Shown here: in pieces, positions 30,076 to 48,561 of the stretch | Position numbering within the stretch: the stretch's first letter is position 1 | Layout of the letters: each line of letters opens with the position of its first letter | Origin: Candidatus Planktophila versatilis | Lineage (GTDB): Bacteria > Actinomycetota > Actinomycetes > Nanopelagicales > Nanopelagicaceae | Length of the DNA stretch: 64,000 bases | Direction: 5' to 3' | Assembly: GCF_002288105.1 (NCBI RefSeq) | Contig: NZ_CP016774.1 | Location: 372,001-436,000 of the forward strand | Made by a program: the position numbers and the translations under genes | Notes under the pieces: generated by a model | Told to the model about the DNA's origin: nothing | The model's input: the letters and a program-made list of their open reading frames with translations, nothing else | The model's database searches: none

Positions 30076-31125
30076 ATGGCTACTGCAGCAGGCGAGATTT
30101 ACTTTATTGGGGAAAAAGATCTCCGTACCAAGGAAATCACTCCTTACTTCAAGGTTGGAATCGTTCGGGAGAATCCTGAAAACGCCGATCGGGATTCCAC
30201 TCAACGCTTACTTGAGCATCAAACTGGTAATCCACGTGAGCTCTACATTGAGAGCGTCGTCAAGACTGACCTTGTTGAGTTGGTAGAAACCCTGCTCCAT
30301 AAGAAGTTCGCACCCCTTGGTGTCCGCGGCGAGTGGATGAAGCTCACTGACGCAGAGCTCGAGCAGGTTAAAGTAGAAGCGAACGCATTAGCTGCAGAAG
30401 CAAAAGGGATCATTTCTGACCTGCAAAAAGCAGAGAAGCTTGCCAAAGAAAAATCAGACGAGGTCACAATCCCTGCGACGGACGAATTGATTGCCTTAAA
30501 TGAGATATATCTAGAGTCAAATGCAAAGCTCAAGGCATCTGATGAGATGTTTGATGTGATTAAGGAAGTCCTCTCTGATGCACTTGAAGATGAAGATGAG
30601 GAAGAAGAAGTTGAGGCTTTTGTCAAGGTTCAGGAGAAAAAAGGCAAGTCCGTCTTTGATGAAACTGCTTTTAAAGAGAAGTACGAGGCTATTTATAAGA
30701 AGTACATAATTACTAAATCAACAATCAAAGGAACAGCTAGTTACTCAGGCTCGCGCACCTTTAAGAAAGAATTTGCAGAATTTGATCCTGGCTTTGCCAA
30801 GATTGTTGAAAGTTTCGATCCTCTAGTTGAAAAGATTGCTGCAGGTAAGGAGAAGAAGGAGGCACTTCATGCATTGAGCCTTGACCTGCGCCGTGCCTCA
30901 GCTGAAGCAGAGTGGTCAAAGATGAAAGCCGAGAGCAAAATAAAGGTAGCTTGTGGAACTCATGCTGGAATTGAAGGCGTCTTCAAGTGGGTTCGCACAG
31001 AGAAGATCATTGAAAGTCTGGATAGGAAAGCACTGAAGGAAGCTCATCCCGATTTGGTTGAAGAGTTCACCGCCGCTGGGGAGGCGATAAAGGCAGTTAT
31101 CGTCGATCCGAAGAAGGGCTACTAA
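30076..31125 (+). CDS. GIY-YIG/T5orf172-like protein with coiled-coil C-terminus
   Basis: A 349-aa protein. The N-terminal ~95 residues fit the T5orf172 branch of the GIY-YIG nuclease superfamily: GEIYFIG, YFKVGI, an Arg in the QRLLEHQTGNP helix, Glu in LVETLLHKKF and a closing GEWMKL. The rest (about 100-349) is charged helix with a very acidic stretch (LEDEDEEEEVEAF, about residue 175). Such domains occur in phage and mobile proteins and in some defence loci. Whether it cuts DNA is unknown; the Arg/Glu pair expected for catalysis appears present. Single gene, flanked by gaps of 100 and 280 bp. Confidence 0.7.
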   Translation: MATAAGEIYFIGEKDLRTKEITPYFKVGIVRENPENADRDSTQRLLEHQTGNPRELYIESVVKTDLVELVETLLHKKFAPLGVRGEWMKLTDAELEQVKVEANALAAEAKGIISDLQKAEKLAKEKSDEVTIPATDELIALNEIYLESNAKLKASDEMFDVIKEVLSDALEDEDEEEEVEAFVKVQEKKGKSVFDETAFKEKYEAIYKKYIITKSTIKGTASYSGSRTFKKEFAEFDPGFAKIVESFDPLVEKIAAGKEKKEALHALSLDLRRASAEAEWSKMKAESKIKVACGTHAGIEGVFKWVRTEKIIESLDRKALKEAHPDLVEEFTAAGEAIKAVIVDPKKGY

Positions 31126-31171
31126 GCCGAACTCCAGGCTTAAGCCTTGTTTGGATTCCTAACGGACTCGT

Positions 31172-31208
31172 GTTCGGAATCCGAACGGCTTGTCGGGATA
31201 TCCCGACA
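31172..31208. repeat. Two adjacent perfect palindromes
   Basis: GTTCGGA-A-TCCGAAC (31172-31186) and the 18-bp TGTCGGGATATCCCGACA (31191-31208) stand side by side, in the gap between the GIY-YIG gene and the TPR gene. They could be a terminator pair without a T run, or a site for a dimeric binding protein. Confidence 0.7.
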
Positions 31209-31254
31209 GTTTGAACCCTGACCCCCTTTTTACGCTCAACCGTATGATTATCGT

Positions 31255-31270
31255 ACGAACACCTGTTCGA
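31255..31270. promoter_or_regulatory. Candidate LexA (SOS) box upstream of the TPR cassette
   Basis: ACGAACACCTGTTCGA differs in one base from the actinobacterial LexA consensus TCGAAC-N4-GTTCGA, which occurs perfectly near lexA in this same window (53751). It lies 134 bp before the GTG start at 31404. Confidence 0.55.
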
Positions 31271-31403
31271 AATCTATGTTACTCTCCGCTTCCCCCTAAA
31301 ACTCCGCTCCAAGCAGTAACCCCCGGCCCAACGCGAAGATGTCAGTGACGGCCAGTAACTTCTCCATACGTCAGAAGCTCCAGTGTCTATAAGAAGGGTA
31401 ACG

Positions 31404-32333
31404 GTGAGTACCGAACCAAATAATGGAAAAGCCCAAGAGCAAGAACTCTGGGATCGCATTAGCACGACAGAAGGTGCAGAGCGAGCTGAAGTCTTAGATG
31501 AACTCAGCCACATTGCATACAAGAAAGATAACTTCATCGAGTGCTTGAATTTAGTAGATACCTCTATTGATATCTACTTTAAACAAGGCGGCTTAGATAT
31601 TTATCTCACAGAGTTAATTCATCTCTATCACGGAAAAGTGCACTGCTTTGAAAACCTCAAGCGGTATGAAGATGCCGCTAGAACTCACGAGGAGTTAGCA
31701 GTCATGAAGTTCGTTGAAAACGACTTCGAAGCACAAGCTGAAGAACTACGTGCGGCAGGACGTGCGTGGTATCGCACTGAAGAGTGGCGAAAGTCGCTTG
31801 ACAATCACCTAGCTGCAAAAGCAGTACTTGATCCAAGTATCACAACGCTCACGATGGGGGTAGACCTACTCAACATTGGAATGGCGCTAGCGAAGCTAGG
31901 CAGTTATCAAGATGCAGTTGATAATTACTTAAGCGCTCGCTCCCTCTGTAAAGAGGCAAAGAATCCAGAATTTGTTGGATGGTGTGATAACTATCTAGCA
32001 CTGTCATATATCGCCCTTAACAACGGCCCAGAAGCAAAATTCCACGCACTTCACTACTTCAACTACACCAAGGTAACTGAAGATCTAGGAATGGAAGCGT
32101 ATTCACGCTACCGACTAGGGGCAGCCCTTCTCCTCTGTGAAGAGTACGAAGAAGCAGAGAAGCACTTAGTTCGCTCTCTTGAACTACTTACCCTCGATGA
32201 GGATAAGGATTGGGAAGATATCGTCGCGGTAAATAAGCAGCTGGCCCAGGCTCTCACAGCGCTAAACCGTGAGGCTGAAGCCCAAAAGCGTCTTGATCGC
32301 ATCAAGACCATCGAAGAGACCATCGCAGCGTGA
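31404..32333 (+). CDS. Tetratricopeptide-repeat protein
   Basis: A 309-aa all-helical cytoplasmic protein made of about seven TPR-like helix pairs (for example AARTHEELAVM, LLNIGMALAKLGSYQDAVDN, LLLCEEYEEAEKHL). GTG at 31404 is chosen over GTG at 31383 because AGAAGG lies 6 bp before it. TPR proteins are scaffolds for protein contacts. Its stop overlaps the next start (GTGA), so it is coupled to the small membrane protein and probably to the Ntn-like gene. A candidate LexA box upstream would place the cassette under DNA-damage control. Confidence 0.78.
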   Translation: MSTEPNNGKAQEQELWDRISTTEGAERAEVLDELSHIAYKKDNFIECLNLVDTSIDIYFKQGGLDIYLTELIHLYHGKVHCFENLKRYEDAARTHEELAVMKFVENDFEAQAEELRAAGRAWYRTEEWRKSLDNHLAAKAVLDPSITTLTMGVDLLNIGMALAKLGSYQDAVDNYLSARSLCKEAKNPEFVGWCDNYLALSYIALNNGPEAKFHALHYFNYTKVTEDLGMEAYSRYRLGAALLLCEEYEEAEKHLVRSLELLTLDEDKDWEDIVAVNKQLAQALTALNREAEAQKRLDRIKTIEETIAA

Positions 32334-32818
32334 TCAAGTCTCGAGCAGTATTCGCAGCAGGTGCGGGGTTCCTATCCGCCGCACTTGCTGTGACTTACTT
32401 TCAGGTGCAAGAACCCACCGGGCCCAGAGCAATTGCGATCCCTACCACCCTTGCAGATGAAGAAGTCCTTACCTGGAACTGCGAGATCCCCGAATACAAG
32501 CCAGAGTCAATAATGCTCACTTGTGCAGATGGGGGGTGGATGGTTCACACCATCACCTGGAGTAAGTGGGGAAAAGGTGGCGCTGAAGGCATGGGCATTT
32601 TCCGAGAGAAGCTATGTGAACCGAGTTGCGCAGAAGGAGAGATTGCGAAAGAGAAGGTCAAGGTGACGCTCTCAGACTTAACAGAGCGCAAAGGAAAGTA
32701 TTACTTGAGAACGCTAGACATTCGTACAGCATCAGGTAAGGATTTCATGTCTGGCAGGGGCGATGAGCTGAAGTGGGATGTGATGGAATTTATTGAGATG
32801 ATGGGTTGGGATGAGTGA
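32330..32818 (+). CDS. Small membrane-anchored or secreted hypothetical protein
   Basis: A 162-aa protein with an N-terminal hydrophobic segment (residues about 7-24) that could be a signal peptide or anchor. The exterior part has four Cys (NCEIP, LTCAD, KLCEPSCAEG), likely two disulfides, and is otherwise polar. I do not recognise it. It starts with GTG inside the TPR stop codon and ends 9 bp before the Ntn-like gene, so it belongs to the same unit. Confidence 0.68.
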   Translation: MIKSRAVFAAGAGFLSAALAVTYFQVQEPTGPRAIAIPTTLADEEVLTWNCEIPEYKPESIMLTCADGGWMVHTITWSKWGKGGAEGMGIFREKLCEPSCAEGEIAKEKVKVTLSDLTERKGKYYLRTLDIRTASGKDFMSGRGDELKWDVMEFIEMMGWDE

Positions 32819-34107: not shown

Positions 34108-34185
34108 ATGACTGATGCAGATTCGCTTTCAATCGAATATATCCAGAAGAGATTCAACAAGCGGATTAACGAGGCAAAGAGGTAG
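34108..34185 (+). CDS. Possible 25-aa peptide or remnant between Ntn-like and ART-like genes
   Basis: ATG to TAG gives a 25-aa charged helical peptide (SIEYIQKRFNKRINEAKR at its end). The frame is also open upstream from 34063 with protein-like composition (LLFEVESRLENLG), so it might instead be the tail of an eroded gene. Its stop lies 4 bp before the ART-like ATG. No good ribosome binding site is seen. Confidence 0.3.
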   Translation: MTDADSLSIEYIQKRFNKRINEAKR

Positions 34186-34189
34186 ACAA

Positions 34190-34792
34190 ATGCAAAGTGA
34201 GAATCAAAGTAGAATAGAGCAGGCTAGGCTCGAGAAAAAGTATGAAGGATTAAAACTTCTGTATCACGGTACAAGCCTATTTAACGCTCAGTCCATGGCT
34301 ACGAGTTCAGCAAAGAGACCAGCAAATACTCGACTCGCAGAGGAACTCTGCAGTTCATTCAACAGTACGCTTGCTGAAGTTGTGGCTGACAAAAGTAGCC
34401 ACGGCTTCTTTGATCAATTTGTCTTTGCCAATTCTCCTGCGCAAAGCCGGGATAAAGAGATTTATACCTCTACGGGCTTTGTCCTTGCCGCGAATTACGC
34501 TTCCAGAGGTCCTGAGTGGAGATATCACCTATTAATGTACTTTGCGAGCAAAGCCTTAAATACTTCATTTAACCCTATGGCCCACAATGAAGAAATCGAA
34601 ACTTGGATAAAGAGATATGCAGAACCTGCCGCAATTGTGATACTCGATGCGTCTAACTATCCTAAGTACCCAGAAATTAATGAATTTATCAAGAAGCTCA
34701 GCAAGGGCGATACTGTAAGAATTCCCTATCCACTTCCAGATACAGTGAGAGTGATTGAGTTTATACAGTGGGGAAACGAGATTAACTCTTGA
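34190..34792 (+). CDS. ADP-ribosyltransferase-like (PARP/ART fold) protein, 200 aa
   Basis: The N-terminal LLYHGTSLFNAQSM has the H-G-T motif (His26) that binds NAD in ART-fold enzymes, and the middle DKEIYTSTGFVLAANYASRG fits the second motif (Y-x-T/S...A-x-x-Y-A). A clear third-motif Glu is not obvious; candidates are in YPEINEF and VIEFIQWG. It could therefore be an active transferase, a 2'-phosphotransferase-like enzyme or an inactive binder. ATG at 34190 is chosen because AGAGGT lies 6-7 bp before it; a longer frame begins at 34115. It ends overlapping the convergent YbjN-like gene by 11 bp. ART proteins in such regions are often toxins or defence effectors. Confidence 0.6.
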   Translation: MQSENQSRIEQARLEKKYEGLKLLYHGTSLFNAQSMATSSAKRPANTRLAEELCSSFNSTLAEVVADKSSHGFFDQFVFANSPAQSRDKEIYTSTGFVLAANYASRGPEWRYHLLMYFASKALNTSFNPMAHNEEIETWIKRYAEPAAIVILDASNYPKYPEINEFIKKLSKGDTVRIPYPLPDTVRVIEFIQWGNEINS

Positions 34793-35261
34793 TTTCAGTC
34801 CAGCGCTTGCCACCGAATTTCTCCTGAACTTCATCATCGAGTTGGTCCGCCATGGCGGCAACAATAAATGCAGCGTGCTTGAGCTCTCCAGGAGAAATCT
34901 GATCACCCGCCAATGCATAGACGAAAAATAGATCGCAGGTTCCCTCATCATCGAGTATGACCTTGATTGAACCAAGGTTTCTCCGTGAATCCGTTGCAAC
35001 CCATTGGAAGAGTGCGGGAGATCTGGGTACATCCATAGCTAGGAGGGCTCGCACTCGAATCAACGTGTTAGGAAGCTGGTGTGTGTTCACAAATTCTTTG
35101 ATTTTGGCGGTATCTGGACGAGACATGGTGACAACGTCAATCCAGACCTTAGTAGATTGGTATTCAAAGGTAGTATCCCCATCAGGGTCAATTTCAGCAT
35201 TCGAGAAAATTGCCTTGGTGTACTCAAAAACCTTCTCTTTGACCTCTTTAACTAGAGTCAT
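34782..35261 (-). CDS. YbjN/T3SS-chaperone-like (TY-Chap) protein
   Basis: A 159-aa cytoplasmic protein with the alpha-beta pattern of the YbjN/CesT-type peptide-binding chaperone fold: an N-terminal helix, a middle strand region and LFQWVATDSRRNLGSIKVIL, then LFFVYALAGDQISPGELKHA and ADQLDDEVQEKFGG. Proteins of this type bind peptides of a partner. The adjacent divergent kinase carries a related domain at its C-terminus, so the two genes probably act together or interact. The divergent gap holds two inverted repeats. Confidence 0.72.
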   Translation of the reverse strand: MTLVKEVKEKVFEYTKAIFSNAEIDPDGDTTFEYQSTKVWIDVVTMSRPDTAKIKEFVNTHQLPNTLIRVRALLAMDVPRSPALFQWVATDSRRNLGSIKVILDDEGTCDLFFVYALAGDQISPGELKHAAFIVAAMADQLDDEVQEKFGGKRWTEIKS

Positions 35262-35381: not shown

Positions 35382-37766
35382 GTGACGTTTACTCCACCCG
35401 AGCAACTTGGGAAATGGTTGCGACAGCATCGTCTTGGCAACGGGGCGTTCGGTGACGCCTGGGTCTTTGAGGACTCCAGTGCCAAAAATGAGTACGCGGT
35501 GATTAAATTCTTAACCCAGTCACAAGAGTCGATTACCGTGACAAAGAAACGATTTAAAAAAGAGAGAGATATTCTTTCTAAATTGAATAACCCGCGGGTA
35601 TGTCGACTTCTGGACGATGATTTGGATTCAAATCCGCCGTGGATTGCGACAGAATTATTTGGAGGTCGTCCTCTCAAATCTGAGATTACTGAGAGTTATC
35701 AGTTAGATGAATTCACCTGGGTCAGATTAGCCAACGATGTACTTGAAGGGTTAACTTACGTCCACTCACTAAAAATTAAGCATCGCGACTTAAATCCAGG
35801 CAATATCGTATCTACCGCCGCGGGCTACAGAATCATTGATTTTGGAATTTCTTCCCAGGGTCAGGCCCAAGGAACTTATTCTGGGAACCAGAGAATATTT
35901 CATCGGCTTTATGGATCACCTGAGCTTTATGATGAGAATCAGGTGATAGATGAGAAGTCAGATGTTTTTTCACTCGCCACCCTTCTTGTCTTTGCGGCGA
36001 CACACAGATCTCCTTGGACAACAGATACACGAGTTTCATCAGATAGAGAAGTAACTCAAGGAATTTTTGAAGAGGTTGCCTACAACATTATAAAGTCGGA
36101 ACCGCAGTACTACGGCATGAGTTCAAATCAGAAAATACTGCTGCGCAAGATGCACGAAAAAAATCCTAAAAACCGTCCCTCTGCCGAGGAAGCACTGAAG
36201 GAGCTGAAGAAGTTATCGGATAAAGAGTTTGTGAATTACTTGGCGGCAGGAGCTCCCAAGAGACCTAGTAAATCGGCTCCGGTAAAGGTAGCTCAACAAA
36301 ATATAAAGGATGCAGATCCAAAAAAGAGCCCGAAAATTGTCATTTCACCACGCGTAAACCTCTCCAAAGAAGAGAGTAAGGCACTAAAGAAAGAGAGCAG
36401 TCATCGTCAGCAGATGCTGATTAAAATAATCGATTCAGAATTCGGCCATGATGCACTTGCATCTGATTTTCCTCAACGGGCTGCTGTCAAGAAAATGCTT
36501 ACTGTCTTAGATCTTCTGACAACGGAAGAGATGGAAGATGTGAGCCGTCAAGTCAATGCGAAACTGGGCTGGGAGTTTATTAAGAATTTACCAGATCCAT
36601 CACAGGCCGGCGCCCCCATCAAAACAAAACCGACCAAACTCGCGATATCAACTAATCGGGTGCAAGTTGTCGAGGGATGGGCTTCAGTGGATCCAGCTAA
36701 CTTATCAATCTCCGGAAATTCTGTACAAGTGGATGCAGAGGCTTGGCCGGCCCCTAAACCCAAAGAGACTGGTCCCAGAAATCCTGGCAACATCGCGAGT
36801 TTCCTTCAAATTTATTGGAAAGACCTCTTAATCGGTTGGCTGACGACGCCGATTGGCTGGCTTATTTACCGAGCTTACAAAAAGCGAAATGCACCTTCCC
36901 AAGGTAGTTCTGAAAACGCTGCAATTAGCTTAAAGGGTTGGAAAATTGGGTATTTAGTAACGCACGGTATTTCATTCGGATTTTTAGGTCCGGTAGCTGG
37001 AATCCCCTTTGCCTTCCAACTCAAATCCAAGCCCGTGTCTGTATTCATGGCGATTAATTCCATTGCAGTCTTCATATTTTTCGGTGCAATTGTCTCAACT
37101 CCTTCGGGGAGTGAGGTTGCCACCTACGCAACCGCAGTCTGGGTGATGAATTACATTTTCGGTTTCTTCCTTCCTCTTGCAATGCGCCGAGGAAAAGTTG
37201 AAGACCAAGTACAGTCACCGGAAGTTTCAAATCAGCTCCCCTCCACATACTTAGCCGAGGGCGAGAAGATAGATCCTTTTGATGATGAAGAGTATTTTGC
37301 CAATGCTCAAGCCAAGCTCAAGAAGGAGCCGGTCAAGCAGACCTGGCTACATCTCGGTGATGAAGTCACCAAGATACTGAACCACTCGGGTATTGAGAAT
37401 TTCAATATTGCTTTTGCTCAACTAGATATAGAAGGAATTTACTTCCAAGGGTTCAGAGAAAAAAGTGGATGCATAACGATTGAGGCTGCTTCAAGCTTGA
37501 GTGTTCGTCCAGAAGTCACTAGTGAACAGAATCGAAACATTATTCGCTCCGGATGGGAGCCGCCAGCTGGTGAGAACCCAAACTACGTCAAGTTCCTAGA
37601 TTTGACCCAGAGCAATCTTGAATTCATTTCGAGTCTGATCATTTCAACACTTCGCGATGGATATGGTGTTGGCTTGGAAGGACTGCAGCCCGTATTTAGC
37701 GTAAGCATGGATGGAGAGATCATCTATGTAGATTTCGAAGAATTTAAGCGACTTACTTCTCAGTGA
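35382..37766 (+). CDS. Membrane Ser/Thr protein kinase with C-terminal YbjN-like domain
   Basis: A 794-aa transmembrane kinase. The Gly loop GNGAFGDAWV and Lys42 (VIKF), the catalytic loop HRDLNPGN (Asp136; Asn138 replaces the usual Lys of HRDLK) and DFG (Asp153) lie in residues 1-280. A charged linker (about 290-460) leads to about four membrane helices (475-610). The last ~150 residues hold LDIEGIYFQGF, IIRSGWEPPAGENPNYVKF and LRDGYGV, the mark of the TY-Chap peptide-binding fold. GTG at 35382 has AAGGGGATG upstream. The 3' end overlaps a convergent gene by 7 bp. Transfer to Ser/Thr is expected, but the HRDLN change makes activity uncertain. Confidence 0.82.
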   Translation: MTFTPPEQLGKWLRQHRLGNGAFGDAWVFEDSSAKNEYAVIKFLTQSQESITVTKKRFKKERDILSKLNNPRVCRLLDDDLDSNPPWIATELFGGRPLKSEITESYQLDEFTWVRLANDVLEGLTYVHSLKIKHRDLNPGNIVSTAAGYRIIDFGISSQGQAQGTYSGNQRIFHRLYGSPELYDENQVIDEKSDVFSLATLLVFAATHRSPWTTDTRVSSDREVTQGIFEEVAYNIIKSEPQYYGMSSNQKILLRKMHEKNPKNRPSAEEALKELKKLSDKEFVNYLAAGAPKRPSKSAPVKVAQQNIKDADPKKSPKIVISPRVNLSKEESKALKKESSHRQQMLIKIIDSEFGHDALASDFPQRAAVKKMLTVLDLLTTEEMEDVSRQVNAKLGWEFIKNLPDPSQAGAPIKTKPTKLAISTNRVQVVEGWASVDPANLSISGNSVQVDAEAWPAPKPKETGPRNPGNIASFLQIYWKDLLIGWLTTPIGWLIYRAYKKRNAPSQGSSENAAISLKGWKIGYLVTHGISFGFLGPVAGIPFAFQLKSKPVSVFMAINSIAVFIFFGAIVSTPSGSEVATYATAVWVMNYIFGFFLPLAMRRGKVEDQVQSPEVSNQLPSTYLAEGEKIDPFDDEEYFANAQAKLKKEPVKQTWLHLGDEVTKILNHSGIENFNIAFAQLDIEGIYFQGFREKSGCITIEAASSLSVRPEVTSEQNRNIIRSGWEPPAGENPNYVKFLDLTQSNLEFISSLIISTLRDGYGVGLEGLQPVFSVSMDGEIIYVDFEEFKRLTSQ

Positions 37767-38830
37767 AGCGCCTTACTAACGAATTTTTCAAAGTCTTTGA
37801 TGGTCTGAGCGCTGGGCTTACCTAAACACTTAATGACCAGCAGTAAGCCGGGCTTACTCACAATCTGAGTGCCGATATCAGGCAAGTTCTCTTCATCAAA
37901 AGATGCTGCAAGAACTTGAGCCTCAAGATCCTTGAGAGCTTGCATGTTCTCCTTCTTGGGCTTGTAATAGGCAAATAAACCTTCACCCTTTACCGCCTTG
38001 AACTCGACTGCGCCATGATCTAACACTAAATCGATGCGGGAAGTATCTGTTTTTACTTCAACAGCTTTCTCATAGTATGAAGATAGTTGCTGATAAGCAC
38101 GATTTAGTTGGGGTGATTGATCGAATCTTTCTTCTGTTGGCGAGATTGCAGACATAACTCGGTAGTTAAATGATTTGTCAGGATCAATTGTTCCTGATGA
38201 GGCATAGAGAATATGGGCATCATGGAGAAAGACTTCAAACTCGGAGAGATAACTATTTCTTGTAAATTTCTCGCCTAGTTCAAGATTTGTGAATCTTACT
38301 TTAATTTTATCTAGCCAACCCGGAATGGCTTCTTTTGAAACTATCTTGGTGCGTAATAGATCTGCACCTTCTTCAGATTCTAGAAAGTTGATGATGGCCT
38401 TCACCGAGCGATTTCTATAATAATAAGCCTGCTTCAGTCCTCTAATCTTTTTGAACTCACGCTCTAGGAGAAAGAGCATTTCTTCACTTATTTCCTTTAG
38501 GTCTTGTGCTCCGATTGTGTCAGAATATGTGCGAGTTAAATACTCTTGGACACGAATCCTTTTATCCTTCTCGAATGCAACACTTGACATTATTTCTGAA
38601 AGCCACTGAAAATCAAAGCTAGTTCTTTGCGTGCGCAAGACTGACACATGAAAGGTTCTAAAGAAATTATTTAACTCGTTTTGAATAAAGCTATTTGCGT
38701 TAACTTCGACTACTGCCTGAATTTCTTTTTTTCGCACTTTGCGATCCACTTCAAAGAGACCCTTGATGTGTTCGAGAACATCTTTACCCGTTGTTGTCTC
38801 GGTAAAGGCCACCGCATTGGACTTGGACAT
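37760..38830 (-). CDS. Hypothetical protein with PD-(D/E)XK-like nuclease motif
   Basis: A 356-aa mostly helical protein. Near residue 265 the segment SRIDLVLDHGAVEFKAVKGE places Asp267, Glu276 and Lys278 as in the PD-(D/E)XK nuclease core (strand, D, short turn, strand with E-x-K). The first 260 residues are charged helices with Tyr/Arg-rich parts (QAYYYRNRSVKAI) that may bind nucleic acid. I know no named family. It lies between the kinase and the Cys-containing small gene and is transcribed leftward, convergent with the kinase. Nuclease activity is a motif-based guess. Confidence 0.6.
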   Translation of the reverse strand: MSKSNAVAFTETTTGKDVLEHIKGLFEVDRKVRKKEIQAVVEVNANSFIQNELNNFFRTFHVSVLRTQRTSFDFQWLSEIMSSVAFEKDKRIRVQEYLTRTYSDTIGAQDLKEISEEMLFLLEREFKKIRGLKQAYYYRNRSVKAIINFLESEEGADLLRTKIVSKEAIPGWLDKIKVRFTNLELGEKFTRNSYLSEFEVFLHDAHILYASSGTIDPDKSFNYRVMSAISPTEERFDQSPQLNRAYQQLSSYYEKAVEVKTDTSRIDLVLDHGAVEFKAVKGEGLFAYYKPKKENMQALKDLEAQVLAASFDEENLPDIGTQIVSKPGLLLVIKCLGKPSAQTIKDFEKFVSKALH

Positions 38831-38960
38831 GGATCTCGATTCTGGGTAGAGGAGGGGCCCTGGGACCCCTCGAGGGATCTAATATTACCGAAATATCCGA
38901 TTTTTTGGAAATATTTTTAGGTATTTTTTGAAATTACGCTCAGTAACGGCGTGTCTCGAT

Positions 38961-38990
38961 TTGCAATATTTAGTAATGTTTGCTTATAAT
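38961..38990 (+). promoter_or_regulatory. Promoter upstream of the 39057 gene
   Basis: TTGCAA and a perfect TATAAT are separated by 18 bp, 67 bp before the GTG start of the small basic protein. It likely drives 39057 and, by read-through, the following rightward genes to 46635. Confidence 0.65.
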
Positions 38991-39056
38991 AGGACCCTAG
39001 CCACACCGGCTATACCAAGTAAGGCTCAGAAGGCCTTAAGAAGTAGGAGTTAAACA

Positions 39057-39428
39057 GTGAGTGCTGACAAGTTCTCTAAGGGTGCTTTTGCAGTGTGCAA
39101 GGATCGCAGCTGCCAACGCCCAGCAGGAAAGTATGCAAACCGTGCCAAGGGCCAAAAGCCTGAAAACCGCCTAGTCAAGGTTCTAGAAGAGCGTTGTGAG
39201 AAGAAGTGCTTCCGCTCGATAGACCGTGTGAAATACGCCGTGCAAAGGGCGGAGAACGCCCGCATGCGCGCTGAGGCAGATGGGCTCTCGTCCAAGCGCC
39301 GCGAGCTTCGTTGGTTTGAGTGCCACAGCCATGGCGTAAAGATGTACCACCTCACCAGCGTGGATGAGGCCGTATACATCGCCCGCTTTGAGGCCTCCAA
39401 GCGTGGGGAGTACAGCCTTGCAGCCTAA
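39057..39428 (+). CDS. Small basic Cys-containing hypothetical protein, 123 aa
   Basis: A 123-aa highly basic protein with Cys14-x4-Cys19 and a later CEKKC pair (ERCEKKCF), so it may bind one metal ion, and a C-terminal SVDEAVYIARFEA helix. Unrecognised. GTG at 39057 has a GTAGGAG binding site. A consensus promoter lies upstream, and the gene overlaps the next one by 11 bp if that gene starts at TTG 39418. Confidence 0.65.
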   Translation: MSADKFSKGAFAVCKDRSCQRPAGKYANRAKGQKPENRLVKVLEERCEKKCFRSIDRVKYAVQRAENARMRAEADGLSSKRRELRWFECHSHGVKMYHLTSVDEAVYIARFEASKRGEYSLAA

Positions 39429-39945
39429 TACCAATGATGCATTCCAAGAGTTGGTATCAGCCAACACTGATCTATCGGTATCTATGCACGCGATGTACAT
39501 GCTTCGTCGATTCCGCAGTTTGGGAATCCTCGCTGAGTACATCCAAAAAGACGGCGCCTTTGCTTACCTTCGCATCCCAGCTAGTGATGGAGCGCGGCTT
39601 GAAATTCGCCCTCTTTCTACACGGGTCAACGATGTTGTCACAGTTCAGCCACTCATGGAGTGGAATGAATATCCAGAGCCACTGCGCTCAGCTTTGCAGA
39701 AGGCTAACAAGCCAACTGGCTTCTATCGATACAACGCACACATTGAACTAATCGTCGATGACTATGAACCGGAGTATCCAGATCGTCAATGTTTGGCCTC
39801 TGAAGATGGTCCTTGCGAGCTAGCCGACTTCAATTTCTCAGCCAGAGATTTCCAACAGTTCATCTTTGGCGCCATCTTCCATATCAAGGAAGAGACAGGT
39901 TTTGAGGTCTACCCAGACTTTCGCAGATCGCGAGTTGCACTCTGA
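39418..39945 (+). CDS. Hypothetical protein, 175 aa
   Basis: A soluble acidic alpha/beta protein with a helical N-terminus (HAMYMLRRFRSLGILAEYI) and a tail of alternating strands (HIELIVDDYEPEYPD, then FIFGAIFHIKEETGFEVYPD). Family unknown. I place the start at TTG 39418 because GGGGAG lies 7 bp before it, inside the end of the previous gene; a GTG at 39403 or the longer frame from 39364 lack such a site. The overlap implies translational coupling with 39057. Confidence 0.6.
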   Translation: MQPNTNDAFQELVSANTDLSVSMHAMYMLRRFRSLGILAEYIQKDGAFAYLRIPASDGARLEIRPLSTRVNDVVTVQPLMEWNEYPEPLRSALQKANKPTGFYRYNAHIELIVDDYEPEYPDRQCLASEDGPCELADFNFSARDFQQFIFGAIFHIKEETGFEVYPDFRRSRVAL

Positions 39946-40035
39946 AAATGGAATCAACCACGAAAAAGAAAAAGTTAATTGCACACATAGTAATAACCAC
40001 GGTGAAAATCACCACTGTTCGAAAGGAGAACGCCA

Positions 40036-41346
40036 GTGCGCACAAAGTTCATTCTTGATACCGATTTAGTGGCAAACCAGCAGGATGAGAACCTCACGCT
40101 GCTCGTTGAAATTAAGGCCCCCACTGCAGCACTTCAGGGATCTCGCCCAGCACAGGGAGTAATCCTTGCAATCGACAACAGCGGGTCCATGGCTGGAAGC
40201 CCACTTGATGCGGCTAAAGAATCCGCCCTCAAGCTCCTTTCGCAACTTGATAAGAAAGACTGGTTTGGTCTCATCACCTTCGATGACACCGCTCGAGTTA
40301 TTGTGCCGATGCGTCGCATGGGTGAGCACGATCTGCTTGCAGTCAAGCAAGCGATCCGCAATATTGAAGATGGCGGATCTACCGATATCGCAGCCGGCTA
40401 CACAATGGCGTTACGCCAAGCTCGCACATGCACAGCTGAAGCGGGAACGACTGTTCTACTAATCAGTGATGGCCATGCCAATACCGGAGAAACCGATCCG
40501 GCATTCTTTACCGCCGTCGCATCCAAGGCTGCGACCGAGAAAATCTCGTGCAGCACCATCGGACTATCTAATGGATATGACGAAAAGATTCTTGAGGCTA
40601 TTGCTCAAGGTGGGGGAGGCGGACACCGCTTTGCTCACGGTGTCGATGAAGCGATTGGCGCCTTTGCTGCTGAGTTCAATGACTTGCTGGAAAAAGTTGC
40701 GGTCAACGTAGTTATGAAGTTAACACCCACCGCACTTGCTGAGGGCATCCCTTCCATTGAGATTATCCAGCGACTACCATTTTGGAGAGAAGGTAACGAT
40801 TACTTCGTTCAACTTGGAGATTTTTATGGTGGAGAAGAACGCCGATTTGTCATGGATCTATCCATCCCTGGAATCGCTGCACTTGGCCTTTGCAAAGTCG
40901 CAGAAATCTCCATTGAATATTTGGACTTGCAGCAGCAATGTGAAGTACAGGTAGTGCTTCCCGTGCATGTCAATGTGGTGCCAGCAGATGTCGCAGCTGG
41001 CCGGGTCGAGGATCCGATTGTAAAAGCCGAGCGATTAATCTTGTCTGCGCAAGTAGAGAAGGCAATTGCGACCGACGAATTGAGGGCAGGAAATACAAAG
41101 CAAGCTTCTTCACGCCTTAAAGGCACTGCTGAAAATCTACGTCGTATCGCAGCAGAGATCCGGGTTGTTGATGAACGCACCGCCGAATCCCTCGCAATCA
41201 TCTTGGAAGAAGCACAAGATATGGAAAACCTCGCACAAGTTGCAGAAGTCGAAGATGCCGCTTTTTCACAGAAACTTCTTCACGAGAATTATTCTCGCAA
41301 GACCCGTTCACGTAATGAACGCCAAACACCAGAATCTTCAAACTAA
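40036..41346 (+). CDS. von Willebrand factor type A (vWA) domain protein
   Basis: A 436-aa cytoplasmic vWA protein. The MIDAS metal motif DNSGSM (about residues 47-52) follows GVILAI, with further metal contacts expected in GGSTDI and LLISDGHANTGE. The C-terminal half has a beta region and a helical tail (TAESLAIILEEAQDMENLAQ). No signal peptide. vWA proteins of this type act as metal-dependent adaptors, for instance in TerY-P modules with a kinase and a phosphatase. GTG at 40036 is preceded by AAGGAG. The phosphatase gene starts 14 bp after it. Confidence 0.85.
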   Translation: MRTKFILDTDLVANQQDENLTLLVEIKAPTAALQGSRPAQGVILAIDNSGSMAGSPLDAAKESALKLLSQLDKKDWFGLITFDDTARVIVPMRRMGEHDLLAVKQAIRNIEDGGSTDIAAGYTMALRQARTCTAEAGTTVLLISDGHANTGETDPAFFTAVASKAATEKISCSTIGLSNGYDEKILEAIAQGGGGGHRFAHGVDEAIGAFAAEFNDLLEKVAVNVVMKLTPTALAEGIPSIEIIQRLPFWREGNDYFVQLGDFYGGEERRFVMDLSIPGIAALGLCKVAEISIEYLDLQQQCEVQVVLPVHVNVVPADVAAGRVEDPIVKAERLILSAQVEKAIATDELRAGNTKQASSRLKGTAENLRRIAAEIRVVDERTAESLAIILEEAQDMENLAQVAEVEDAAFSQKLLHENYSRKTRSRNERQTPESSN

Positions 41347-41360
41347 GAGAAAGAGAGACC

Positions 41361-41855
41361 ATGTACCCACTACCACCACTATTTTCTGAAATCTTGCCTA
41401 ACTTGTTTATGGGAGGGACAGATGACGATGACGTCATTCATATTCCGGCCCGTATTTACAACCGCAGAAATGAACTCCCTTTTGATGCGATAGTGACGAT
41501 GTATGAGTTAGCTCGACCAGCTTTTGGGGGCGTCCTAGAATTCCGCTACGGAATCCCTGATGCCGCCATGACAGATATCGATCTAGATCGCCTACGCGAT
41601 GCGGTTGAATTCGCACACGCCCGCTGGAAGGAAGGCGATCGAGTTCTTATCCGTTGCCAGGCAGGCTTAAACCGATCTGGCTTGGTCACGGCATTAGTGC
41701 TGATCAAGGAAGGGCACGACCCAGCAATGGCAATCGAGCTTCTGCGCACCAAGCGCGATCGCGATGCTCTCTGCAATCTGGACTTTGCAACCTGGATCGG
41801 GGAGAACGCACTGGCCTTTCTCGCCCCTGCTGAAGGCGTGGTTGGCCATGCATGA
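41361..41855 (+). CDS. Dual-specificity/tyrosine phosphatase-like protein
   Basis: A 164-aa protein with the Cys-based phosphatase loop RCQAGLNRSG (Cys99-x5-Arg105) and Asp-containing turn before it (PDAAMTDIDLDR) as general acid candidate. The residue before Cys is Arg instead of the usual His, an unusual feature that may change the Cys acidity. The fold and length fit DSP-type phosphatases. It probably removes phosphate from targets of the kinase at 35382, or from a nucleotide or RNA substrate. It ends 25 bp before the PLD-helicase start. Confidence 0.8.
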   Translation: MYPLPPLFSEILPNLFMGGTDDDDVIHIPARIYNRRNELPFDAIVTMYELARPAFGGVLEFRYGIPDAAMTDIDLDRLRDAVEFAHARWKEGDRVLIRCQAGLNRSGLVTALVLIKEGHDPAMAIELLRTKRDRDALCNLDFATWIGENALAFLAPAEGVVGHA

Positions 41856-41880: not shown

Positions 41881-44025
41881 ATGAAATGCAACTCAGAAGA
41901 TTGTTCCTCCTTCCAGATTCATAACTCTCGCCATAGACTTCATTTCATGCCGTTCTCGGATATCGAATTTCTTTCTACATATGATTCTGGTTTTGGCGAT
42001 ATTGACGTAGTCGAGAACTTCTATGTTCCCTTACTAGAACAATCCATTCGATACGATCGCGTGGCTGGCTACTTTTCTTCAAGAGTTTTTGCGAGTGCAG
42101 CGAGAGGCGTGGCTGGCCTCGTACGTAATGGTGGAAAAATGCGACTCGTTACCAGTCACGCATTTACACCGTCAGACACGGTGATTTTTCAAAATCATTT
42201 CGAGTCTGATGAATTTTCAAATAAACTAATTGCAGATTTTATTAGCAGCTTCAATGAGCTAGGTGGCCTAAAAGAATCGATAGCCAAGAGTCACGTTGCG
42301 GCTATGTGTTGGATGCTTCGAGAAGGGTTTCTAGAAATCAAGGTAGTTGTGCCAAATAGTGCAGATTTGACCATGGTGACCCCCGAAGACTTTGATAAGT
42401 TCCATCCTAAATTTGGAATATGTGTTGATTCATCCGGCAATCAAGTGGCATTTTCGGGCTCCGTTAATGAGACTGAGGGCGCGTGGAGAAGAAATATTGA
42501 GAATTTCGATGTTTATCAAAGTTGGCTAGACGGAGAAAGCAAATGGATTGATCCGAAGATAAAGCAGTTTGAAAAATTGTGGACTAATAACTTGTTTGGC
42601 CAATGGAGAACGATAGATCTTCCATCCGCCGTGAAAAATAAAATTATTTCAGACTTTGCTCCTGACGATTTCCCAAAGGAAATTGAAAATCAGGCACCAG
42701 AATTTCCTTGGGGGCTTAGGTCGTACCAGAATGAAGCTTTAGAAAAATGGATTTCGGCAGGGCGCAGAGGAATGCTAGAAATGGCCACAGGAACGGGCAA
42801 GACACGAACCGCCAGAGCGTGTATTTCATCTTCTGCTGAACTTGGAAAACTACTGACAATCATTGTTGTTCCTTACCAACATATTGGCGATCAGTGGTCA
42901 AAAGAGCTTAGTGAATTTTCCCCAGTAAACGTGGGAGGAGATTGGCGTACCAAGCTCGAGAAAATCAAACATGAAGTTATTTTAGGACGCCGTAGCTCAC
43001 TCACCTTAATTGTTGTCAAGAATACAGCTTCAAAAGATGATTTTGTGAAAGTTATAGGAGAAATGGCCACCGCATTCGATAACACACTTTTTGTAGGAGA
43101 TGAAGTTCATTGGTTGGGTGCACCTGAATTTAAGCCTTCACTGGTTGAGGTCGCAAATTTTCGTCTGGGACTCAGTGCAACTCCCAGAAGATACTTTGAC
43201 GAAGAAGGCACCGACTTCCTGATTGAGTATTTTAACGGAACAGTTTATGAGTTATCAATCAAGAAAGCACTCGGAATCCTCGACGAAAACGGTAATCCCA
43301 TTCTTTGTCCTTACGAATATTTCCCTCAATTTGTAGAGTTATCTGATGATGAGTTAGCCAAATATCGAGAACTAACAGCGAAAATTGGAAAACTAAAAGC
43401 AATCAAAGAAAAGGTTGACACAATTCAATTGGAATACTTGTATAATCAAAGATCATCAATTGTGAAATCCGCAGGCAGTAAGCTCCCAGGAGTAAAAAAG
43501 CTCCTGGAGGAACTACCTAAACCGCTAAATCAGTGCCTGATTTATTGTTCAGATTTTGAGCAATTGCGCCTTGTTGCCGAAATACTTCATGAGATGAAAA
43601 TTGATTCACAACAGATTACTGGCGCTGAAGGAACCGCTCCGTCAGATGAATTTGGGGGAATATCCGAGCGTGAGTACATTATTCAGAAATTTGCACAGGG
43701 TCACATAGGGGTTTTATTGGCGATTAAATGTCTTGATGAAGGTGTCGACATTCCTTCAGCAAAGATGGGAATCATCCTGGCTAGTTCTGGAAATACAAAG
43801 GAATTTATCCAGAGACGAGGGCGTTTAATGCGACCGTTCCCGGGTAAGGAAATCGCAAAGATATATGATTTCTGCGTACTTCCTAAAAATGTAGATGACC
43901 CAGTTAACGGACTAGCCCTAGTGACTGTTGAGCTGGCTCGGATTCTCGAGTTTGCAGAAGACGCTGCAAACTATGACGAAGTTCATGAGATTATTGCATC
44001 CAGAGGAGTGATTACGAATGTCTGA
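41881..44025 (+). CDS. PLD-nuclease/SF2 helicase fusion protein
   Basis: A 714-aa two-part enzyme. The N-terminal third is a phospholipase-D-type nuclease half-site: His175-x-Lys177, Asp183 and GSVN about 17 residues later. From about residue 280 it is an SF2 helicase: Q-motif-like RSYQNEAL, Walker A ATGTGKT (302-308), Walker B DEVH (407-410), SATPR, and the C-terminal QRRGRLMRP. Such fusions occur in restriction and anti-phage loci. ATG at 41881 is preceded by GGGGGAACG; an alternative ATG lies at 41947. It overlaps the 50-aa gene by 8 bp. It likely moves along and cleaves foreign nucleic acid as the effector of the four-gene cassette. Confidence 0.85.
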   Translation: MKCNSEDCSSFQIHNSRHRLHFMPFSDIEFLSTYDSGFGDIDVVENFYVPLLEQSIRYDRVAGYFSSRVFASAARGVAGLVRNGGKMRLVTSHAFTPSDTVIFQNHFESDEFSNKLIADFISSFNELGGLKESIAKSHVAAMCWMLREGFLEIKVVVPNSADLTMVTPEDFDKFHPKFGICVDSSGNQVAFSGSVNETEGAWRRNIENFDVYQSWLDGESKWIDPKIKQFEKLWTNNLFGQWRTIDLPSAVKNKIISDFAPDDFPKEIENQAPEFPWGLRSYQNEALEKWISAGRRGMLEMATGTGKTRTARACISSSAELGKLLTIIVVPYQHIGDQWSKELSEFSPVNVGGDWRTKLEKIKHEVILGRRSSLTLIVVKNTASKDDFVKVIGEMATAFDNTLFVGDEVHWLGAPEFKPSLVEVANFRLGLSATPRRYFDEEGTDFLIEYFNGTVYELSIKKALGILDENGNPILCPYEYFPQFVELSDDELAKYRELTAKIGKLKAIKEKVDTIQLEYLYNQRSSIVKSAGSKLPGVKKLLEELPKPLNQCLIYCSDFEQLRLVAEILHEMKIDSQQITGAEGTAPSDEFGGISEREYIIQKFAQGHIGVLLAIKCLDEGVDIPSAKMGIILASSGNTKEFIQRRGRLMRPFPGKEIAKIYDFCVLPKNVDDPVNGLALVTVELARILEFAEDAANYDEVHEIIASRGVITNV

Positions 44026-44170
44026 TTTTGAAGTAATTAGATCTTTTGTTTCAAATTCTGATTTTTCAGAGGAGATAAAGGAAGCCCTAATGCAGTGCAT
44101 AGCACTTGAAATTCAGGACGCCGGACCTACCGAGTACCTTAATCTGGTCAAGAAATTGAGCAGCGAGTAA
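44018..44170 (+). CDS. 50-aa acidic helical protein of the PLD-helicase cassette
   Basis: ATG at 44018 lies inside the end of the helicase gene, and the TAA at 44168 is directly followed by the ATG of the SMC-like ATPase. The product is 50 aa, acidic, likely two or three helices (SEEIKEALMQCIALEIQDAG), with no known motif. AGAGGAG sits about 9 bp before the ATG. The tight overlaps on both sides and the strong binding site argue for a real gene, probably a small subunit or linker of the complex. Confidence 0.7.
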   Translation: MSDFEVIRSFVSNSDFSEEIKEALMQCIALEIQDAGPTEYLNLVKKLSSE

Positions 44171-46192
44171 ATGAAAATCAATAAAATTGATATCGCAAAT
44201 TTTGGAATTATCTCAGAAATTTCTATGGACATTTCTTCTAAGGCCGGAAGTCTTGTATTCCTAAATGGCCGTAACGGTCGCGGAAAGACTACTTTTCAGT
44301 CAGCTTTGAAGTGGTGTATTTATGGAGACGAGCCAGAAGCGACAAAATTCTTGTCAAGCTTTGCTCTTAATGAGGCTAAATCCGGCCAGACAATCACGAC
44401 GGGTGTCACAACTGAAATAGTTATGGACAAAACTGGTTTAACCGCTCACATCCAGCGCTCACAGGTCTTCCAAAAGACTGAGTCGGGAGGCGCAAAACGA
44501 GTTGGTCAGTCACAACTTATAGTCAAAACGCGCAAATCCGAAAAGGGATCTTTTACAGACGTTCTTGCAAATCCAGACGCCTGGCTAGGGAACTATTTTC
44601 CACGCAGGCTAATGGACTTTTTCCTCTTTGACGGCGAGAAAATGAAAAATTTCTTCGATTTGAAAGTTAAAGGTGCGGTGGAGAGTGCGGTCAGAGAGAT
44701 TGCCAATGTCGACAGATTTGAAAATATTGCAAACCAAATGTCGTCCGCGGAAGCGACTTTAAATAGAAAAATCTCCAAACTTACTGGCGCGAAAGCCGAA
44801 AAGATAAATATGCAGCTAGAAGCCCAGCAAAAACTGTTAGTTGATTTGTATCTGGAGTATCAGCAAGGTGAAGGGGAACTCAGCACCAAAAAAGATAGAA
44901 AAGAAGAAATATCTCATATTCTCTCAGAGCGAGAGGGTCTTACTGACGCCGCTGAGCGACTTAAGTTTATGGAACTCGAATTGGTGTCACACCGTGAGGC
45001 GAACTCGCAAGCAACACAAGATTTCCAAACGGAGATTCTAACCAATGGAATACACGGCCTACTAGTCGCGTCCTTCCCTGAACTAAGGAAGCAAGTTGAA
45101 CTCGCTAAAACTGAAGATCGTCTCCCACCTCCCTTCGAGCCTGACAGAATTTTAAAATTGCTCGACGAGCAATCATGTATATGCGGTACAGACCTGTCTC
45201 CTGGTAGCAAGGAAGCTGACTCCTTGAAGAGATTGATTGAAAAGTTTCAGGTCTCAAGCATTCTAGGAAAAGTCTTGGACACTACTTCGAAGCAAGTAGA
45301 TTTACTAGAACAAAAAATGGCAATAGGATGGAAAGTCATTGAGGACAAAAATCGTGCAATAGAGAAATCAACGAAAGATATCGAACGAGTGGAGGCAGAA
45401 AGAGATCGATTGCTCGAGAAATTGCAAGATCATGATGCTTCAGAAATACGTTTACTAGCTGATGAGAGAAGAACTCTTGATAAAAGTATAGAAAAATTGG
45501 TATCTCAAAATGCAACCATGCTTGCTCAAAGCGAGGCCGCTACCCATAAGCTTGAAACTCTCAAGAAAGAATTTGAATTGGCTTCAAAAGGAAATGCCGA
45601 GGCCGAGACACTTAAAGTTCAGGCTGCATTTGCTGCTGAAGTTGCAAAATCGGCAAGACAGATTCACAAGATTGCAATCAGTCAGGTCCGAACTCGAATT
45701 CAGGAATCCTTTACTGAAAAATTCTCGCACATTAAGGATGGTAAGTTCCGGACTGAAATCACAGAAAATTTTGAAGTTCGAACTCTGAATGAATTTGGTG
45801 AAGAAACGGAATTATCAGAGGGTGAAAAAATGATGAAAGCATACATTTTTTCGATTGTGCTTCGTGAAGTGATTAATCTAGGATTTCCACTTATTGTTGA
45901 CACACCATTTGGGCGCTTAGATTCTCCAAATCGAGCACAGTTGGCGAAAATGCTCACGGTGTTCTTAAAGGAAGAGATTGCTGGATCGGATCGACAAGCA
46001 TTCTTCCTAATGCAGGACACTGAGTACACTCCGTATACAAAGAAATATTTTGAGACGCTTAAACCTATTGAGGCGTATCTTGCGATGGACCCAAAGTTCA
46101 AGAATATTAGATCGTCATTAGAGTTTGGTATAGATCCTGATTGGTTGTTACATGAAGCCTGGAAAGACTGGGCGGATAGGAAAATCGGATGA
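44171..46192 (+). CDS. DndD-like SMC/Rad50-type ATPase
   Basis: A 673-aa ABC-class ATPase of the SMC/RecN/DndD kind. Walker A GRNGRGKT (residues 33-40); coiled coils on both sides of a hinge-like Cys336-Ile-Cys338-Gly; signature LSEGEKMMKAYIFSIVLREV region; and Walker B LIVDTPFGRLDSP (Asp577). The Cys motif is C-x-C, not the C-x2-C of a Rad50 zinc hook. DndD proteins act in DNA phosphorothioation or its surveillance, but DndB/C partners (sulfur transfer) are absent here, so this is not a Dnd system. Its stop overlaps the next start (ATGA). Confidence 0.85.
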   Translation: MKINKIDIANFGIISEISMDISSKAGSLVFLNGRNGRGKTTFQSALKWCIYGDEPEATKFLSSFALNEAKSGQTITTGVTTEIVMDKTGLTAHIQRSQVFQKTESGGAKRVGQSQLIVKTRKSEKGSFTDVLANPDAWLGNYFPRRLMDFFLFDGEKMKNFFDLKVKGAVESAVREIANVDRFENIANQMSSAEATLNRKISKLTGAKAEKINMQLEAQQKLLVDLYLEYQQGEGELSTKKDRKEEISHILSEREGLTDAAERLKFMELELVSHREANSQATQDFQTEILTNGIHGLLVASFPELRKQVELAKTEDRLPPPFEPDRILKLLDEQSCICGTDLSPGSKEADSLKRLIEKFQVSSILGKVLDTTSKQVDLLEQKMAIGWKVIEDKNRAIEKSTKDIERVEAERDRLLEKLQDHDASEIRLLADERRTLDKSIEKLVSQNATMLAQSEAATHKLETLKKEFELASKGNAEAETLKVQAAFAAEVAKSARQIHKIAISQVRTRIQESFTEKFSHIKDGKFRTEITENFEVRTLNEFGEETELSEGEKMMKAYIFSIVLREVINLGFPLIVDTPFGRLDSPNRAQLAKMLTVFLKEEIAGSDRQAFFLMQDTEYTPYTKKYFETLKPIEAYLAMDPKFKNIRSSLEFGIDPDWLLHEAWKDWADRKIG

Positions 46193-46635
46193 GTGAAGTA
46201 ATCAAAAAAACGAGAAGACAAGCATTCAGCTGGGATCCGGAGTTTAAGCCGGTGCTAAAAGATTTAGAGTATTACCTCTTAAAGAATTCAGGAAAGACTT
46301 CGATATCCAACCTGAATCTTTTCATGCTTTGTCTTGGAATTGGGTTCGAAGCAAAGATGAAGAGAGACGTTCCACCACGCAAAACAGACTCAGCAAGACT
46401 AGAGCATATCCCGGATCAGCAAATGGCTGTCATCAAATCAATAGCGATAGCAGACACTAAAGGTTATCTTGTGTTGCAGGATGAGGATGCTGTTTACGAC
46501 ATAGTAGAGCAGTACGCTGCTGGAGGTCTTATGATTCTTGCAAATGAAATCGCTCAGCAGAAAGACTTCGGTGGTTGGCTAAGCGCGAAGCTGTACACTC
46601 AATCAAAGAATATAATTAATCATCTTGTTGAATAA
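46189..46635 (+). CDS. Hypothetical protein, 148 aa, last gene of the PLD-helicase cassette
   Basis: A 148-aa basic N-terminus (KKTRRQAF) is followed by a helical domain with NLNLFMLCLGIGFEAKMKRD and a C-terminal ILANEIAQQKDFGGWLSAKL. Unrecognised; a ribbon-helix-like or DndE-like DNA-binding role is possible by position and charge but I see no firm motif. It is coupled to the ATPase by ATGA overlap and ends 2 bp from the convergent restriction-modification gene. Confidence 0.65.
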   Translation: MSEVIKKTRRQAFSWDPEFKPVLKDLEYYLLKNSGKTSISNLNLFMLCLGIGFEAKMKRDVPPRKTDSARLEHIPDQQMAVIKSIAIADTKGYLVLQDEDAVYDIVEQYAAGGLMILANEIAQQKDFGGWLSAKLYTQSKNIINHLVE

Positions 46636-46637
46636 AA

Positions 46638-47207
46638 CTAGATTAGGTGAATTTGCAGTGATAACACATTTGACTTAATCAAACTCTTGTAAGCGTGCTT
46701 GTATGCAAAACTGTATTCAGAAGAATTTGCATAGGCCTTGTCCCAGCCACCTAACTGCAATACATTTTCATCAATTGTAATCAGCAACCCAAGTATATTG
46801 GAATCGTAGATTGGAAATGCTGGGTGATTTCTAATTGATTCGATTGCCGAAACTTCCAACTTCAGAAAATTCGTCCCAATAACCTCACGATTATTCAAAC
46901 AAGTGACGACATTTATCTGGTGATAGCTCCCACATCGCTGATCACACTGGGCAGTCCCATCTAATCTAAATATAGCTGGTGCATTTGCAAGATCGGGAGA
47001 TTCGAAAAGACTTTTCTTCTGCCAATTTACCGTCCTTACATTTTCGGTCAAAGCCCCTTTCAAGGACTCACTTCTATTCTTTATTGACTTATGCCCATCC
47101 ATCGCCTGAATCTCGTAGCGAATTTTATGAACGAGTTCAGTAAGGCAAGTTTCGAGTTCCTCAGCAACTGCAGATAGAGCGTCTTCGACTACCCTGAAAT
47201 TAGCCAC
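46638..47207 (-). CDS. Restriction-modification-associated protein, candidate endonuclease
   Basis: A 189-aa protein made from a GTG start that overlaps the methyltransferase stop, with GGAGG 9 bp upstream of the start. N-terminal half helical; then YHQINVVTCLNNREVIGTNF with a Glu and Asn-rich strand pair, and LGLLITIDENVLQLGGWDKA, which could be nuclease strands. No clear PD-(D/E)XK triad. Its coupling to a C5-methyltransferase gene suggests it is the restriction partner or a specificity/controller protein. Unrecognised otherwise. Confidence 0.55.
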   Translation of the reverse strand: MANFRVVEDALSAVAEELETCLTELVHKIRYEIQAMDGHKSIKNRSESLKGALTENVRTVNWQKKSLFESPDLANAPAIFRLDGTAQCDQRCGSYHQINVVTCLNNREVIGTNFLKLEVSAIESIRNHPAFPIYDSNILGLLITIDENVLQLGGWDKAYANSSEYSFAYKHAYKSLIKSNVLSLQIHLI

Positions 47208-48459: not shown

Positions 48460-48561
48460 GTATTGCCTCCGGGCTGAAGCATAGGAAGTAGGACTGACAA
48501 GGTGTGGGATCGACGCGCCTTCGCTATAGCTCTTTTTGGTATTCACTGACAAGCTGAGGGC

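Follow-up and report, generated by a model that had tools for sequence, protein, structure and literature searches.

A stretch of 64,000 nucleotides from the complete 1.33-Mb genome of Candidatus Planktophila versatilis (C1:372001-436000, called here the window) raises the question of whether a membrane Ser/Thr kinase, a vWA protein and a Cys-based phosphatase, encoded at 35382, 40036 and 41361 within 6.5 kb, form one regulatory module. The original prediction joined them in a unit resembling TerY-P systems and proposed that phosphorylation could control a PLD-helicase nuclease cassette directly downstream. All three genes are real, with open reading frames (ORFs) at these positions, Pfam matches and intact motifs. 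As a module, the proposal was supported for the vWA and phosphatase genes and unsupported for the kinase gene. The loose three-gene account is replaced here by a tested two-gene unit. The kinase gene and the nuclease cassette are best read as separate neighbours of this pair, all three lying on one variable accessory island.

The vWA-phosphatase operon and its second partner

The operon consists of two genes separated by 14 bp:

40036-41346, + strand: ArnB-like vWA protein (436 aa) with a vWA domain containing an intact metal-ion-dependent adhesion site (MIDAS), a beta-sandwich, predicted C-terminal helices and a basic tail
41361-41855, + strand: Cys-based dual-specificity phosphatase (DSP) of the rhodanese-phosphatase superfamily (164 aa), signature RCQAGLNRS

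Both reading frames and their Shine-Dalgarno-like sites are intact. The vWA protein matches Pfam VWA (2e-19), and the MIDAS residues D47-x-S49-x-S51 and T116/D145 are invariant across 13 homologues. The family also has a conserved basic C-terminal tail with an invariant Ser420, an obvious candidate phosphosite. The phosphatase matches Pfam DSPc (1.2e-8), and its residues Cys99, Arg105 and Asp67 are invariant in all 17 homologues. Its predicted model (pLDDT, the predicted local distance difference test, 87) resembles DUSP22, DUSP28 and Tk-PTP. Thus it is of the dual-specificity type and not PP2C, as had been predicted.

Co-occurrence was analysed in 251 genomes of the order Nanopelagicales, the close DSP subfamily being defined by at least 56% identity. 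The vWA gene is present in 22 genomes and the close DSP subfamily in seven, six of which also contain the vWA gene (expected 0.61, p 1.5e-6). Eleven genomes have a histone-deacetylase-like gene, ten of them together with the vWA gene (expected 0.96, p 3e-11). Judged by the vWA gene, the closest relatives are metagenome-assembled genomes of freshwater Candidatus Planktophila and other Nanopelagicaceae.

Gene order is conserved as well (below, G numbers denote genomes and L numbers loci). The vWA and DSP genes are adjacent in the same order in G076, G037, G096, G230 and G246. The order vWA-DSP-deacetylase is seen in L044, L045 and L049, while L047 has vWA-DSP-TY-Chap3-other-deacetylase. The vWA gene is followed directly by the deacetylase gene in L065, L067 and L068, and L048 contains deacetylase-DSP at a contig end. 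At L114, from a distant uncultured bacterium with a vWA protein 36% identical, the DSP gene ends just upstream of the vWA gene. In the phosphatase tree, a branch with support 88/82, recovered in 91% of bootstrap trees, has all eight vWA-linked DSPs on the same side; the L114 protein forms a long branch. The gene order, the co-occurrence and the single DSP subclade establish the vWA and DSP genes as a genuine conserved operon, with a histone-deacetylase-like hydrolase as the second partner of the vWA gene in relatives. Together they constitute a small mobile gene set of freshwater bacteria, the deacetylase being often, not always, included. The link of the deacetylase to the vWA-DSP pair appears to be undescribed so far: no such combination, nor an HDAC-family hydrolase in such a setting, was found in our literature search.

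More distant DSP lineages (33-45% identity) were considered as members of the same pair and rejected, since their co-occurrence with the vWA gene is at chance level (1 of 12, expected 1.05). Among viral contigs there were 97 pattern matches to the vWA protein, none of which was confirmed.

The window genome lacks a close deacetylase, and in L044, L045 and L049 the deacetylase gene occupies the place taken in the window by the first gene of the nuclease cassette, pbeA. One possibility is that the window pair is an orphan remnant with no selected function now, the deacetylase having been lost and the cassette inserted in its place. However, the MIDAS, the phosphatase catalytic residues, both frames and both Shine-Dalgarno-like sites are all intact, and in L046 the vWA-DSP pair likewise lacks an adjacent deacetylase, the genome encoding one on another contig. 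We consider this explanation quite unlikely.

Two further kinds of genes recur in the vicinity of the vWA gene. ECF-sigma-like genes are located shortly upstream of the operon at L044:8239-8781, L045:1574-2107 and L049:4001-4525; perhaps they encode its regulators. Genes with candidate HD domains are found at L046:8693-9295, L065:2-472, L066:4439-5038, L070:123-839 and L155:10834-11775 (Pfam HD_4 was run for L046 only, and the L155 domain was recognised by eye).

Possible function of the vWA-phosphatase pair

The predicted model of the vWA protein (pLDDT 74) has an ArnB-type fold. It can be superposed on Catenulispora 4fx5 (Z 25.5, 296 residues) and on ArnB from archaea, 8s05_B (Z 23.7, root-mean-square deviation 3.1, 285 residues); both matches span the vWA domain and the beta-sandwich, residues 1-320 in the case of ArnB. 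As in the ArnA/ArnB regulatory complex of the archaellum (PMC6509490, PMC7472852, PMC12852372), the vWA domain is inserted in a beta-sandwich, and C-terminal helices are predicted to follow. ArnB is under kinase and phosphatase control: ArnC phosphorylates its C-terminal helices and PP2A reverses this, with the result that complex assembly is altered (PMC6509490, PMC7472852). The coupling of the vWA protein with a phosphatase is arguably phospho-regulatory here too, although the window phosphatase is Cys-based and not PP2A.

The ArnB fold match, together with the ECF-sigma-like genes upstream in three relatives, could mean that the pair, like archaeal ArnA/ArnB, controls a housekeeping function, for example the stress response or surface structures, and does not serve phage defence. 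On the other hand, the vWA gene is patchily distributed, being present in only 22 of the 251 genomes and undetected in a genome of the same species, and the pair has restriction and helicase genes next to it. No FHA protein, the ArnA-type partner, was seen here (the genome was not searched for FHA). A housekeeping role is, in our view, unlikely.

The second set of similarities is to the ADP-ribosylglycohydrolase (ARG)-centric conflict systems, predicted to reverse phage ADP-ribosylation (Iyer et al. 2022, PMC9503650). These contain vWA and TY-Chap proteins as chaperones and a rhodanese-superfamily phosphatase; HD phosphatases are also mentioned (PMC9503650). The window similarly encodes a vWA protein, a phosphatase of this superfamily and TY-Chap domains. 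More distant relatives of the vWA gene adjoin a Nudix regulator gene (L117, L120, L122, L149 and, within the order, L071) or an ADP-ribosylglycohydrolase gene (L120, L122, L149, L125). Pfam scans of window proteins turned up no recognisable Nudix or WYL regulator. Unlike ARG systems, the Nanopelagicales copies bear the histone-deacetylase-like gene, unmentioned in the text of PMC9503650.

The ARG-like context of the distant vWA relatives and the likeness to ArnB are the reasons to interpret the vWA-DSP pair, with moderate confidence, as a reduced eraser module, that is, one removing protein modifications. More fully, the two genes at 40036-41855 would make up an accessory operon that pairs an ArnB-like vWA protein with a DSP of its own, a reduced form of the mobile vWA-DSP-deacetylase module and kin to ARG systems; we give this account as a whole an even chance. 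The MIDAS site of the vWA protein would capture client or modified proteins. The DSP would then dephosphorylate the clients or the C-terminal region of the vWA protein, resetting the complex, and sister modules would contribute deacetylase or ADP-ribose erasers.

Several observations weigh against this account. The p-values given above take no account of relatedness among the genomes or of the co-transfer of islands. In 16 of the 22 genomes with the vWA gene, no DSP of the close subfamily was seen next to it (some contigs end too early to judge), so the DSP is optional in the vWA module. Searches of the window genome detected no deacetylase (E <= 1e-20) and no ADP-ribosylglycohydrolase (PF03747), the latter being a further difference from ARG systems. 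The likeness to ArnB is one of fold, at 16-18% identity; at the sequence level the similarity to ArnA/B is confined to the vWA core. Finally, the C-terminal helices, predicted at residues 327-429, lie outside the aligned part and contributed nothing to the ArnB match.

If the eraser interpretation is true, mobile bacterial operons undo protein modifications imposed by phages. Such logic has already been proposed for ADP-ribosylation; its extension to phosphorylation and acetylation was not found in the literature searched. One could go further and consider the vWA-DSP-deacetylase and vWA-ADP-ribosylglycohydrolase operons as variants of one modular defence, in which an ArnB-like scaffold recruits interchangeable enzymes removing phage-added phosphate, acetyl or ADP-ribose from host proteins. 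This broader generalisation is tentative and probably does not hold.

The kinase and the PbeABCD cassette

The remaining genes of the predicted module and the cassette are as follows:

35382-37766, + strand: membrane Ser/Thr kinase whose C-terminus has a marginal Pfam match to TY-Chap3, a neighbour rather than a demonstrated partner
37760-38830, - strand: uncharacterised 356-aa protein, between the kinase and vWA genes
41881-44025, + strand: PbeA, PLD/HKD nuclease fused to an SF2 helicase (PADLOC PbeA 2.9e-199; TIGR04095 1.4e-109, below the curated cut-off)
44018-44170, + strand: PbeB candidate, a small ORF of 50 aa between PbeA and PbeC, assigned by position only
44171-46192, + strand: PbeC, DndD/CxC-type ABC ATPase (PADLOC PbeC 3e-55; TIGR03185 3e-25, below the curated cut-off)
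46189-46635, + strand: PbeD, DndE-like 'phosphorothioation-associated protein 4' (TIGR04062 6.9e-6, weak, below the curated cut-off)

The kinase (Pfam Pkinase 7e-37) has the motifs AVIK, HRDLNPGN and DFG, and by these it looks catalytically intact. A single hydrophobic stretch, residues 549-567, is scored as a possible membrane span. The TY-Chap3 domain is barely above the Pfam cut-off (27.1 vs 27 bits). It resembles the free-standing TY-Chap3 gene within the vWA-DSP-deacetylase operon of G076 (30% identity over 82 aa), so the kinase domain combination may be the product of a recent fusion. A genome search for TY-Chap3 matched the window copy only and missed the known G076 copy, and its negatives were not used.

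The kinase and vWA genes are 2.3 kb apart. Between them lie the opposite-strand gene at 37760-38830 and some 1.2 kb of further sequence, so the kinase, vWA and DSP genes do not form one operon. The full-length kinase was found only in its own genome, and a kinase-domain search (E 1e-3) of all fetched loci detected none at any other vWA locus; the flanks of these loci vary in length, and some contigs end close to the vWA gene. The sole match of that search was in G057, at a locus with a DSP not linked to vWA. This Ser/Thr kinase (L058:11175-13325) has apparent Sel1-like repeats, recognised by eye. It was rejected as an example of conserved linkage: its C-terminus differs, and it lies about 1 kb from the distant DSP homologue, with another gene between.

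The region 41881-46635 is a PbeABCD (CxC-DndE) system (PMC6459918, PMC10853773), whose genes encode an HKD nuclease-SF2 helicase, a small protein, a CxC ABC ATPase and DndE (PMC10853773). The earlier description as a PLD-helicase cassette was correct in essence, and missed the PbeB candidate. The end of this ORF directly precedes PbeC, and small genes occupy the same PbeA-adjacent place in other PbeA loci. As the NCBIfam matches of PbeA, PbeC and PbeD are all below the curated cut-offs, they indicate kinship, not equivalence; the PbeD candidate had no matches in PDB by phmmer. The window genome contains no TIGR03183 match, that is, no detected DndC, and therefore the system is not evidently tied to phosphorothioation.

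The predicted 25-bp gap between the codirectional DSP and PbeA genes stands if PbeA starts at 41881, and a Shine-Dalgarno-like GGGGGGA is located upstream of that start. No terminator was predicted between the two genes, and their co-transcription is possible. However, PbeA was not detected at the vWA-DSP loci of relatives, and seven other PbeA loci (one in G457 and six in plasmids) contain no vWA, DSP or kinase gene within the fetched flanks. Of the 251 genomes of the order, the window genome alone has a full-length PbeA, G203 having a partial weak match; in the phylum, one further genome out of 326 has it. Thus in relatives the kinase and the cassette are found apart from the other genes, whereas the vWA and DSP genes remain together.

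These data bear directly on the predicted control of the nuclease. In a TerY-P-like triad (as defined in PMC11090510), the membrane kinase would phosphorylate the vWA protein or the Pbe ATPase or helicase, the DSP would reverse this, and the module would gate the PLD-helicase nuclease. As in TerY-P, a vWA protein, a Ser/Thr kinase and a phosphatase, all intact by appearance, lie in one region beside a restriction-type system; the short DSP-PbeA spacing and the similarity of the kinase C-terminus to the G076 TY-Chap3 gene also agree with such a triad. However, no kinase was detected near other vWA loci, nor any of the triad genes in the fetched flanks of the seven other PbeA loci, which leaves the control of the nuclease unsupported. 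Pfam scans of window proteins yielded no PP2C. The kinase is outside the operon and has a TY-Chap3 C-terminus instead of a zinc ribbon or OB-fold, neither of which was seen. The vWA protein, with its beta-sandwich and helical extensions, is closest in fold to ArnB and 4fx5. We regard this mechanism as improbable.

The accessory island

In G013, a genome of the same species, core DNA is retained up to 27.9 kb and again from 51.5 kb on the window scale. Between 27.9 and 47.2 kb there is no DNA match, and in the whole gap only a cytosine methylase gene (47.2-48.5 kb) has a match, with 75% identity at the nucleotide level. Therefore the vWA-DSP region belongs to an accessory island, which also carries genes for a GIY-YIG protein, a Schlafen-group helicase, a MazG-like protein (by eye) and the methylase.

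At 30076-32818, GIY-YIG, TPR and small-protein genes follow one another in an order that is repeated upstream of a vWA gene in L074. In L071 a GIY-YIG gene sits between the vWA and deacetylase genes. A 225-aa protein (34115-34792) with LLYHGTSLFNAQSM near its start recalls ADP-ribosyltransferase folds, no Pfam family being above the cut-off; its gene adjoins a TY-Chap1 gene on the opposite strand (34782-35261). In the region 46638-48552 the neighbour of the methylase is a 189-aa gene that matches no Pfam family; in its place G013 has a 442-aa gene whose product, by eye, resembles a Sau3AI/MutH-type restriction enzyme.

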